DNA from: an uncultured Microbacteriaceae bacterium
Lineage (GTDB): Bacteria > Actinomycetota > Actinomycetes > Actinomycetales > Microbacteriaceae
DNA length: 64,000 bases
NCBI GenBank assembly: GCA_947487835.1
Contig: CANKXX010000002.1
Span: 558,001 to 622,000 of the forward strand
Direction: 5' to 3'
Position numbers and translations under genes: made by a program. This document shows positions 5,138 to 27,450 of this stretch, piece after piece. The first letter of the stretch is position 1. The number at the start of each line of letters is the position of its first letter. The notes under the pieces are model-generated. The model did no database searches, had not been told where the DNA came from, and saw only the letters and a program-made list of their open reading frames with translations.

Positions 5138-5163
5138 GCGGGGGCGCAGGGCGCGGCACCGAC

Positions 5164-5330
5164 GGTCCCTGAGCCCGTCGAAGGGGCGCGACCCATACGG
5201 TCCCTGAGCCTGTCGAAGGGACGTGACGCGTACGGTCCCTGAGCCCGTCGAAGGGACGTGACGCGTACGGTCCCTGAGCTTGTCGAAGGGACGCGACCCG
5301 TACGGTCCCTGAGCCTGTCGAAGGGACGTG
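5164..5330 (+). repeat. Family A repeat array: five head-to-tail copies, 35-bp period
   Basis: Five copies of GGTCCCTGAGCCTGTCGAAG plus GGAC start at 5164, 5199, 5234, 5269 and 5304, so the period is exactly 35 bp. Each unit is a 24-bp imperfect palindrome (arms GTCCCT and AGGGAC) followed by about 11 bp, usually GTGACGCGTAC or close to it. Small changes (CCTG, CCCG, CTTG) distinguish the units. It sits directly after the ctaB stop, between convergent ctaB and ctaA. This resembles REP-type intergenic repeats seen in many actinobacteria; function is unknown. Confidence 0.9.
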
Positions 5331-5438
5331 ATTCAGCAGATCCCGCGGGTCACAGGACGCAATTCAGCAGATCCGTCCGGACACGCCGTGCCTGGACGTA
5401 GCTGGACGGCGTGTCGTCGCAGATCTGCTGAATTGCGT
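5331..5438. repeat. Family B repeat, copy 1 (extra half-site on the left)
   Basis: An asymmetric inverted-repeat element. Outer arms are ACGCAATTCAGCAGATC (5357-5373) and its complement GATCTGCTGAATTGCGT (5422-5438), a perfect 17-bp match. Inside are core arms GACACGCCGT (5380-5389) and ACGGCGTGTC (5406-5415). An additional half-site ATTCAGCAGATC (5331-5342) lies exactly 14 bp outside the left arm. Relatives occur at 13636-13749 and 27157-27269 in the opposite orientation. The remaining 5439-5579 holds only degenerate family A pieces (near 5490-5560) before the ctaA stop. Confidence 0.88.
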
Positions 5439-13635: not shown

Positions 13636-13749
13636 GACGCAATTCAGCACTCGAGCCGCGACACGCCGAGCGACGGGCTTTCTGCATCGGCGTGTCGGGC
13701 TGGATCTGCTGAATTGCGATGGGTGCAGCAGGCGATCTGCTGAATTGCG
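13636..13749. repeat. Family B repeat, copy 2
   Basis: Left arm GACGCAATTCAGCA (13636-13649), core arms CGACACGCCGA (13660-13670) and TCGGCGTGTCG (13687-13697), right arm GATCTGCTGAATTGCG (about 13703-13718). After a 14-bp gap comes an extra half-site GATCTGCTGAATTGCG (about 13734-13749). It lies between the convergent ABC-F and SURF1 genes. Nothing else is seen in 13598-13796. Confidence 0.87.
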
Positions 13750-18014: not shown

Positions 18015-19252
18015 GGGACTACGCGCTCGCCCTTTCCGACGACAGTGATGCCGCTCTCCGTCACGACGTAGCCGCGGGCCCGGTCGTGATCGTGGTCGAC
18101 GCCGACGGATGCGCCGGCTTCGACGACCACGTCCTTGTCGAGGATAGCGCGCACCACGGTGGCGTTCGGCGACACCCGCACCTTGTCGAAGACGATGGAG
18201 TTGACGACACGCGCGGCCGACTCGACGGTCACCCAGGGCCCGAGCACGCTCCGCTCGATGTGGGCGCCCGAGAACAGGGAGCCGAGCGACACGATCGAGT
18301 CGATGAGCGTTCCCGTGTTGCCGTGGGCGTCGCGCACGAACTTGGCGGGCGGCGCGTTGAGCTGCTGGCTGAAGATCGGCCAGTGCTGGTTGTACAGGTT
18401 GAACACCGGAAGGGCCGCGATGAGGTCCTGGTGCGCGTCGTAGAAGGACTCGATCGTCCCGACGTCGCGCCAGTAGTAGCGGTCGCGGTCGGTCGCGCCG
18501 GGCACCTCGTTGCGGTTGAGGTCGTAGACGCCCGCGTTGCCCTGGTTCACGAACCACGGCACGATGTCGCCGCCCATGTCGTGCTTGGAGTCCGGCAGGT
18601 CGCCGTCCCGGATGACCGCGTCGATGAGCTGGTCAGCGTCGAAGACGTAGTTGCCCATGGAGGCGAGCACCTCGTTCGGCGAGTCGTCGAGGCCGACCGG
18701 GTTCTTCGGCTTCTCGAGGAACGCGCGGATCTTCGTCGGGTTGCTCGGCTCGACGTCGATGACGCCGAACTGGTCCGCGAGCGAGATGGGCTGGCGGATG
18801 GCCGCGACGGTGGCGCCGAGTCCGGACGCGATGTGCGCGTCGATCATCTGGCTGAAGTCCATGCGGTACACGTGATCCGCGCCGACCACGACGACGATGT
18901 CGGGCTTCTCGTCACGGATGAGGTTGAGGCTCTGCAGAATGGCGTCGGCCGATCCGCTGAACCAGCGCTTGCCCAGCCGCTGCTGCGCGGGGACGGACGC
19001 GATGTAGGAGTTCAGCATCGTACTGAGACGCCACGTCTGCGACACGTGCCGGTCGAGGCTGTGCGACTTGTACTGGGTCAGCACGACGATCTGGTTCAGC
19101 CCGGAGTTGATCAGGTTCGAGAGGGCGAAGTCGATGAGCCGGTAGTGACCACCAAAGGGGACCGCGGGCTTCGCTCTGTCGGCGGTGAGCGGCATGAGGC
19201 GCTTGCCCTCCCCACCCGCGAGGACGATGGCGAAGATCTTCTTTGATGACAT
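18011..19252 (-). CDS. glgC: Glucose-1-phosphate adenylyltransferase
   Basis: Makes ADP-glucose from glucose-1-phosphate and ATP, the committed step of bacterial glycogen synthesis. It has 413 residues. The nucleotide-binding loop is [20 protein letters not shown] (from residue 12), and the C-terminal part has left-handed beta-helix repeats (about 290-400). It faces glgA across a 49-bp gap, so both genes probably share a control region. It overlaps serB by 4 bp. Confidence 0.95.
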
Positions 19253-27016: not shown

Positions 27017-27045
27017 CCCGGGTGCGGTGGGTTCGTGCGTCCTGC

Positions 27046-27149
27046 GGTCCCTGAGCTCGTCGAAGGGACGTCCCCTTACGGTCCCTGAGCCTGTCGAAGG
27101 GACGTCCCCGGATCGCCCCGGCACGGTCCCTGAGCCTGTCGAAGGGACG
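27046..27149 (+). repeat. Family A repeats, three copies
   Basis: Near-identical copies of GGTCCCTGAGCCTGTCGAAG start at about 27046, 27080 and 27125, so spacing is 34 and 45 bp rather than regular. All have the same orientation as the 5164 array. They open a 540-bp gene-free repeat hotspot after the glycosyltransferase. Confidence 0.88.
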
Positions 27150-27156
27150 TCTCCTC

Positions 27157-27269
27157 ACGCAATTCAGCAGATCTCGCCCGACACGCCGTCCCGGGGTCGC
27201 GACTCGCCGAGGGGCCGCGGGATTCTACTGAATTGCGTCGGGTGAGAAGCGGGATCTGCTGAATTGCGT
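27157..27269. repeat. Family B repeat, copy 3
   Basis: Left arm ACGCAATTCAGCAGATC (27157-27173), core CGACACGCCG (27179-27188), a decayed right core, right arm GATTCTACTGAATTGCGT (27221-27238), then a 14-bp gap and the extra half-site GATCTGCTGAATTGCGT (27253-27269). It has the same layout as copy 2. Confidence 0.86.
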
Positions 27270-27278
27270 CGAGTGGGG

Positions 27279-27407
27279 TGCGCAACGCAGGCTCCGCGAT
27301 TCCCAATGCAGGCTCTGGCCGCCAACTCGCCTACCCGGACCGCAGAGTTGTCCGGCTCGGCCTGTGGAGGAGCCTGCGTTGCGCACGGGGAGAGCCTGTG
27401 TTGCGTA
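27279..27407. repeat. Third inverted repeat in the hotspot
   Basis: TGCGCAACGCAGGCTCC (27279-27295) and its exact complement GGAGCCTGCGTTGCGCA (27369-27385) flank 73 bp. Degenerate further arms (AGCCTGTGTTGCGTAC, 27393-27408) follow. No coding sequence is visible inside. No other copy was found in the window. Confidence 0.75.
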
Positions 27408-27450
27408 CCGGGGGAGCCTGTGTCCGGGACCGGTCGTGTCGCCTGCGTCG

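Follow-up and report, generated by a model that had tools for sequence, protein, structure and literature searches.

The window, a 64,000-nucleotide stretch of the genome of an uncultured Microbacteriaceae bacterium (genome G000), carries three copies of a repeat element. A sequence-only reading had placed them at 5331-5438, 13636-13749 and 27157-27269, and they proved to be real: the half-site GATCTGCTGAATTGCG occurs nine times in the window at up to three mismatches, whereas shuffled windows contained 0.29 occurrences on average and none of 100 reached nine. Eight of the nine occurrences lie inside elements 1-3; the ninth stands isolated at 18929 with three mismatches. In element 1, a dyad core is delimited by a left arm on the minus strand (5358-5373) and a right arm on the plus strand (5422-5437), 64 bp apart start to start, and encloses the inner 9-mer GACACGCCG on the plus strand (5380-5388) and a second, inverted 9-mer on the minus strand (5407-5415), which places the core in a symmetric class. 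An extra outward half-site with two mismatches lies on the minus strand at 5327-5342, starting at 5327 and not at 5331. Element 2 comprises a left arm (13638-13653, minus strand, four mismatches), an inner 9-mer (13660-13668, plus), a second, inverted 9-mer (13688-13696, minus), a right arm (13703-13718, plus) 65 bp start to start from the left one, and an extra half-site 31 bp further on (13734-13749, plus), on which side the same site in Planctomonas deserti carries eight arms. Element 3 has a left arm (27158-27173, minus), an inner 9-mer (27180-27188, plus), a near-right arm with three mismatches (27222-27237, plus) and an extra half-site at +31 bp (27253-27268, plus), and its second inner 9-mer, GACTCGCCG (27201-27209, plus), is a direct repeat 21 bp on from the first, so that this core belongs to a direct class and has no hairpin.

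The extra half-site of element 1 is on the opposite side from those of elements 2 and 3, and the first copy is indeed reversed, as the sequence-only reading had it. The outer arms that it described as shared are present in all three copies, though imperfectly, with up to four mismatches, and the 14-bp gap that it reported between a 17-bp arm and the extra half-site (a 31-bp period) is exact in all three. Its inner hairpin stands for elements 1 and 2 and falls for element 3. Beside element 3 lies a second kind of array, family B, consisting of two left half-sites CGCAAYRCAGGCTC on the minus strand, 21 bp apart, the second with one mismatch (27281-27315), and right half-sites GAGCCTGYRTTGCG on the plus strand in 22-bp steps, the third with three mismatches (27370-27427). 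A third repeat, GGTCCCTGAGCYTGTCGAAGGGACC, forms tandem arrays beside element 1 (5149-5331, 35 bp) and element 3 (27034-27150, 34-45 bp); it has many copies in the sister species G001, where it fills the site of element 2, and no report of its sequence was found in the open-licence PMC literature.

The family of elements 1-3, designated family A, exists beyond the window. At least 41 cores were counted in G000 and at least 45 in P. deserti, in core sets drawn from listed places that may miss decayed copies, and G000 contains 129 GATCTGCTGAATTGCG half-sites at up to two mismatches against none for the reversed control pattern. Among 59 genomes searched as relatives, G000 included, family A was found at up to one mismatch in G000 and P. 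deserti; one further genome gave a single one-mismatch match, standing alone, and the third species of the genus (G001) gave none in this half-site search. A scan of named genomes with the inverted pair returned 31 stretches, 30 of them from P. deserti 13S1-3 and one from Microbacterium sp. H83.

The geometry of family A is regular in the core and loose outside it. The arms are inverted and stand 64 bp apart start to start in 80 of 86 cores (63 or 65 bp in the other six), giving a dyad of 80 bp end to end, compared with 68 to 104 bp in its cousins. Extra arms extend outward in the same orientation, on either side, on both or on neither. Neighbouring arms of the same orientation (n = 152) are 31 bp apart in 111 cases and 30-32 bp apart in 131, and the rarer steps are 41-42 bp (eight), 19-22 bp (six) and 50-51 bp (two), with single cases at 16, 24, 33, 62 and 93 bp. 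These steps are close to whole helical turns. They are not independent events, because the arrays grow by tandem duplication, and equal spacing within an array may reflect such duplication as well as selection. Of the 80 elements with a single core, 28 carry one arm per side, two carry a pair per side, and 50 are asymmetric, one side bearing as many as eight arms. Since extra arms occur on either side, both or neither, the "fixed asymmetry" proposed from the three window copies fails, and the narrow version of that reading, an invariant gap with a conserved extra half-site, is refuted by its own rule: the 14-bp gap does not hold family-wide and the extra arms are inconstant. The G000 draft breaks inside a tandem arm array, at the end of contig C8 and the start of C16 (loci L044 and L045), so the longest arrays are possibly under-counted.

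The 48-bp interior of the A core holds two copies of GACACGCCG in two layouts, inverted (positions 7 and 34) in 35 of 79 cores and direct, 21 bp apart, in 44 of 79, counted over two species and both strands, one of the direct cores having a poor left motif. An outward-facing layout was found in none of these 79 Planctomonas cores, a cruder script having returned one through a 1-bp shift. In a cousin dyad of one genus (L145 and L146), the inner 9-mers face outward.

Comparison of cores between the two species separated the motifs from the DNA between them. In 20 orthologous core pairs, identity was 91% in the arms, 94% in the inner motifs and 58% in the linkers, and in random core pairs of the same class it was 88%, 95% and 40%, respectively. 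With motif identity high and the linkers decayed, the motifs keep their places and the remaining sequence drifts. Arm position 10, the most variable inner position, showed left/right combinations of A/A (40), A/G (23), G/A (11), G/G (4) and C/A (1), with a Fisher p of 0.56; the arm positions vary independently, and pairing between the arms is therefore not what is selected. An RNA or single-stranded DNA hairpin was rejected as the selected form by this lack of covariation. With their spacing near helical turns, their conservation in place and no covariation, the A arms behave as protein sites would, and not as hairpins.

The elements lie between genes. None of 77 overlapped a predicted gene by more than 40 bp, and 41 lay in convergent, 26 in tandem and four in divergent gaps, six being at locus edges, with genes predicted by a simple codon-usage script; gaps longer than 100 bp in the window comprise six convergent, 11 tandem and nine divergent ones. 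Each window element has a counterpart at the corresponding P. deserti site, though the number of arms differs, and the syntenic 80 kb of G001 contained no dyad and one isolated half-site with three mismatches. For 40 A elements of G000, the same site was occupied in P. deserti by the evidence of both flanks in 25 cases and of one flank in five more, four sites looked empty or rearranged there, and for the last six either neither flank was usable or the one flank located had no element next to it. As 25 of the 40 sites are common to both species, movement is old or rare. The best presence/absence case (229 versus 27 bp) showed no clear target duplication at that one site, and no precise insertion with a clean empty site was found in the comparison of G000 with P. 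deserti. A elements occur within about 30-65 kb on both sides of the parS sites in G000 and P. deserti, so that the elements do not appear to be excluded from the region around the origin. For a phage origin, two scans of viral contigs gave no matches.

A slot that holds two A elements in G000 and none in P. deserti contains a nuclease gene in both species (G000:C7:228700-233000, L040; P. deserti C108:48000-51500, L184). The flanks of the slot are about 86-94% identical, and its neighbours are, as we take them to be, a universal-stress-protein-like gene and a dapA-like gene. The G000 gene (C7:230366) is framed on both sides by A elements, and the P. deserti gene (C108:48696) by family B, which forms a complete array on one flank and shows a single clear half-site on the opposite flank. 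Identity between the two proteins is 35%. The A-framed protein matched the Pfam families REase_MTES_1575 (E = 4e-12) and DUF559 (E = 7e-9), both above cut-off; the B-framed protein matched both as well, with DUF559 alone above cut-off, and AbiEi_4 matched both proteins below cut-off. A genome search recovered one more close relative in G000, at C3:245284, framed by a dyad family D that has GACACGCCG inside and some arms that differ at 3-4 positions. The nuclease gene is the sole gene that was found framed by A arms.

Sites and genes are not distributed alike. The search of P. deserti returned the B-type gene and a distant paralogue, and no A-type gene; G001 has no close gene, only the distant paralogue, which is also present in G000 and P. 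deserti. Nevertheless, A arms at 21 orthologous cores carry 0.71 mismatches per arm in P. deserti against 0.74 in G000, and B half-sites persist in G000, where no B-type gene was found. Persistence of sites without the matching gene implies that the A and B proteins read each other's sites, or that a draft lacks the gene, or that another protein maintains the sites. As a first guess, cross-recognition between A and B may explain it, the outer bases CGCAAY-CAG of the two agreeing.

The chemistry suggested by the proteins is that of a nuclease. In an alignment of 96 of 97 proteins, E195, D222 and D248 are present in all 96 and H239 in 95, and these columns probably represent the named EDxHD motif. 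Profile matches in the PDB were to 3hrl, endonuclease-like (E = 2e-7), and to 3r3p, "Mobile intron protein" (E = 0.0026), the latter presumably the nuclease domain of I-Bth0305I. According to the available part of a review on EDxHD enzymes (PMC3943268), such enzymes seem to adopt long structures of several domains, and I-Bth0305I seems to sit as a dimer on nearly 60 bp of DNA. The MTES_1575 domain is described, in the available part of PMC3710099, as a restriction endonuclease domain of the Vsr fold in a giant HEPN protein.

Related repeats share the grammar of family A. Family B, with half-site GAGCCTGYRTTGCG, follows it in the loci examined: its dyads span 67-69 bp in 19 of 22 pairs, and its outward arms are 19-23 bp apart in 29 of 35. 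At up to three mismatches, B half-sites are no commoner than the reversed pattern (95 versus 116 in the G000 loci), and it is the spacing that distinguishes the family, being absent from the reversed control, which covered the G000 loci. Exact B half-sites numbered 14 in G000, 14 in P. deserti and one in one other genome among the 59 searched, G001 having no B sites. D-like half-sites also occur elsewhere in the loci examined, some of them weakly matched and some identical with B sites. Of 349 Microbacteriaceae genomes searched, 18 besides the two of Planctomonas contain cousins of the A dyad, as do nine further genera of 85; with Planctomonas included the figures are 20 genomes and 10 genera, and the control pattern gave none. 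In the other genera, the dyad spacing of 39 pairs was 51-53 bp (13), 63-64 bp (5), 75-76 bp (13), 88 bp (1) and elsewhere (7). These cousin spacings step by about 12 bp rather than 10.5 bp (L089, L095-L157, e.g. L110, L096, L105 and L106). Away from the gene, other sites carry solo copies of A, of B and of several lineage-specific cousins.

The framing of the nuclease gene recurs widely. With a profile of three nuclease proteins, we searched 30 chosen Microbacteriaceae genomes, most of them chosen for A-like arms, and found 90 close nuclease genes in 29 of the 30, with 0 to 8 per genome; 70 of the 90 loci, mostly the best-scoring and from 29 genomes, were examined, and 20 were left out. Left and right flanks matched each other at a score of at least 18, a threshold set after the scores had been seen, in 41 of these 70 loci, compared with 5 of 280 cross-genus pairs, 1 of 162 cross-paralogue pairs from the same genomes, 1 of 55 neighbouring genes at the same loci, and 3 of 120 ordinary genes of 600-1300 bp from G000, G001 and P. 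deserti regions. The corresponding counts against the cross-genus pairs were 51/70 versus 19/280 at threshold 16 and 20/70 versus 4/280 at threshold 25; no match of 18 or more was found at 29 of the 70 loci. Because the loci are mostly best-scoring and some occupy the same slot in related genomes, they are not 70 independent events. Dyads were present on both flanks of 44 of 70 loci against 8 of 70 distant segments, and on one flank only in 20 against 24. The cousins of A that had been found by pattern frame the gene in four genera (L235; L241; L261 with L266; L262 with L265). At L262 and L265, the exact upstream arms and the downstream arms face in opposite directions, in 21-bp steps; two 2-mismatch upstream matches at L262 run counter to the exact upstream ones. 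A further solo dyad of the same family lies at L261 3317-3407, roughly 0.95 kb past the framed gene.

In the order's other families, 10 of 21 loci passed against 4 of 200 control pairs, a count from which one short contig and the window's own genome were dropped and four Microbacteriaceae loci were kept apart. At L270, L276, L282 and L286, in these other families, the framing repeats have unrelated arms, and some of the frames are near-perfect palindromes and some long direct repeats. The inner motif GACACGCC or its complement was present in 36 of 188 near and 6 of 376 far flanks, and beside 24 of 94 genes, whereas four control 8-mers gave 5-10 of 188 and 8-10 of 376. The gene does not track A-like arms: of nine genomes that lacked such arms and entered the gene search, eight still have close genes, which is what separate arms for every gene would lead one to expect. 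Protein identity and flank similarity correlated with a Spearman coefficient of 0.30, a value confounded by shared chromosomal slots and given no weight here. What the framing comparisons show is an association of the gene with matching repeats, and the specificity of that association.

In our view the elements probably represent solo copies of dyads that are cognate to a homing-type nuclease family, which would combine an AbiEi-like winged helix with a Vsr-fold DUF559/MTES_1575 domain of E-D-x-H-D type; binding, cutting and movement we infer. The winged helix of each paralogue would read its own arm, a protein dimer would sit on the dyad, and further monomers would bind the outward arms on the same helix face. 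A conserved part of the protein would recognise the inner motif GACACGCC, a likely place of cutting. Gene and frame together would form the full unit, and solo dyads would be left by gene loss or made by copying in trans, settling where they do least harm, downstream of genes. G001, with neither A or B sites nor a close gene, fits this reading. The chief difficulty for it is that G000 and P. deserti each retain sites whose matching gene was found only in the other; the 29 loci with no flank match, the presence of the inner motif beside no more than 24 of 94 genes, the imperfect B and D frames in Planctomonas and the lack of a clean empty site also tell against it. It is an even call whether the proposal extends to the whole class of actinobacterial DUF559/MTES_1575 nucleases, which would then be autonomous mobile units with paralogue-specific framing dyads. 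Each would have given rise to its own family of solo repeats, mobilised or maintained in trans, whose arms the winged helix reads and whose inner motif the nuclease reads or cuts.

A less likely but serious alternative is that the same protein owns the dyads as a regulator or nucleoid protein, autoregulating its gene through the frame, while solo dyads insulate or roadblock transcription between convergent genes. The preservation of motifs in place amid decayed linkers, the intergenic and largely convergent placement, the spacing near helical turns, and the persistence of A sites in P. deserti, in which no A-type gene was detected, would all suit such a protein. However, the gene is framed downstream as well as upstream, the catalytic residues kept in 95-96 of 96 proteins would be needless for a pure regulator, and differently framed paralogues fill the same slot in two species. 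As this alternative agrees with the homing-type nuclease on the owner of the dyads, the probabilities of the two overlap.

Two explanations that do without the nuclease appear highly improbable. The elements could be MITEs of an undetected classical DDE transposon with the same terminal repeats, since the dyads are 68-104 bp long, have conserved ends and many copies, and are restricted to a lineage; yet the proteins flanking solo elements (two sets of 70) belong to diverse Pfam families with no recurrent neighbour and no transposase among the 25 most frequent of 152 and 112 families, nearly all strong half-sites that were followed up belong to dyads, the only gene found framed by the arms is the nuclease, and the outward extra arms fall outside the would-be ends. 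One strong lone arm was seen at L171 1508, with a dyad 168 bp away. It is no more credible that the elements are transcription terminators or RNA hairpins that have spread as 3' signals: although the elements lie mostly downstream of genes and their arms can pair, the arms do not covary, the inner motifs are direct in 44 of 79 cores, the tandem outward arms do not fit a hairpin, and no Rfam family matched the window at gathering score. Conventional REP/REPIN or BIME elements moved by a Y1 (RAYT) transposase, which are likewise short, repeated, intergenic inverted pairs frequent at gene 3' ends, can practically be dismissed, because PF01797 gave no match in G000 while the same search was positive in 5 of 14 control genomes, the half-site GATCTGCTGARTTGCG is non-palindromic and carries neither a GTAG nor a CGTC tag, and arm pairing is not kept.

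The sequence-only reading had argued for selection or a REP/RAYT-like mobilisation and against random decay. The motifs held in place and the predicted nuclease gene framed by repeats bear out its general part. Its specifics did not survive: a search of the genome found no Y1 transposase (TnpA-REP), the asymmetry varies, 44 of 79 cores are without the inner hairpin, and the arms do not covary.

In the open-licence PMC literature, which leaves most subscription papers outside, we found no report of the arm sequences, of Planctomonas repeats or of a link between DUF559 and inverted repeats, which points to a repeat-and-enzyme system that is undescribed. The papers found there on intergenic palindromic repeats in Microbacteriaceae were, by their titles, unrelated. 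If the extension to the whole nuclease class is true, this would be a third bacterial enzyme-repeat system beside REP/RAYT and IS/MITE. Orphan actinobacterial intergenic repeats would gain an owner, and a common nuclease family, to which the libraries searched assign no function, would gain a physical target. Because many paralogues carry their own arms alongside, protein-DNA specificity would become readable from sequence for dozens of pairs.

Several known systems resemble this one in part. BOX elements of Streptococcus are built of modules, lie between genes and vary in the number of their internal units, a modularity found here as well, but sequence, module geometry and the link to a nuclease are different. 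MITEs of insertion sequences are also short and non-coding, with inverted ends and many copies, whereas here no transposase with matching ends was seen, extra arms extend outward, and a dyad stands on each side of the A- and D-framed genes. With the EDxHD homing endonuclease genes, exemplified by I-Bth0305I, the present genes share the nuclease fold by profile and the E-D-x-H-D pattern; a long DNA site lies under the dimer there, as far as the available part of PMC3943268 describes it, and a dimer would sit on the dyad here. They differ in occupying intergenic slots, in their paralogue-specific framing dyads and in having solo dyads dispersed through the chromosome. The closest likeness is to REP systems, which, in the parts of PMC3116915 and PMC3733652 that were available, comprise dispersed intergenic inverted pairs, a repeat-framed enzyme gene, species-specific families and clustered extra units, the REP unit itself being a 20-40 bp palindrome tagged GTAG or CGTC (PMC3733652, available part). 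Dispersed short intergenic inverted pairs, a framed enzyme gene, solo copies, species-specific families and clusters of extra units are all found here too, but the enzyme is a predicted winged-helix and Vsr-fold nuclease instead of a Y1 transposase, the half-site is non-palindromic and untagged, and the arms stand near helical steps without covariation. With no Y1, no tagged palindrome and no selection for a hairpin, the system is not a member of REP/RAYT, yet it works like one.
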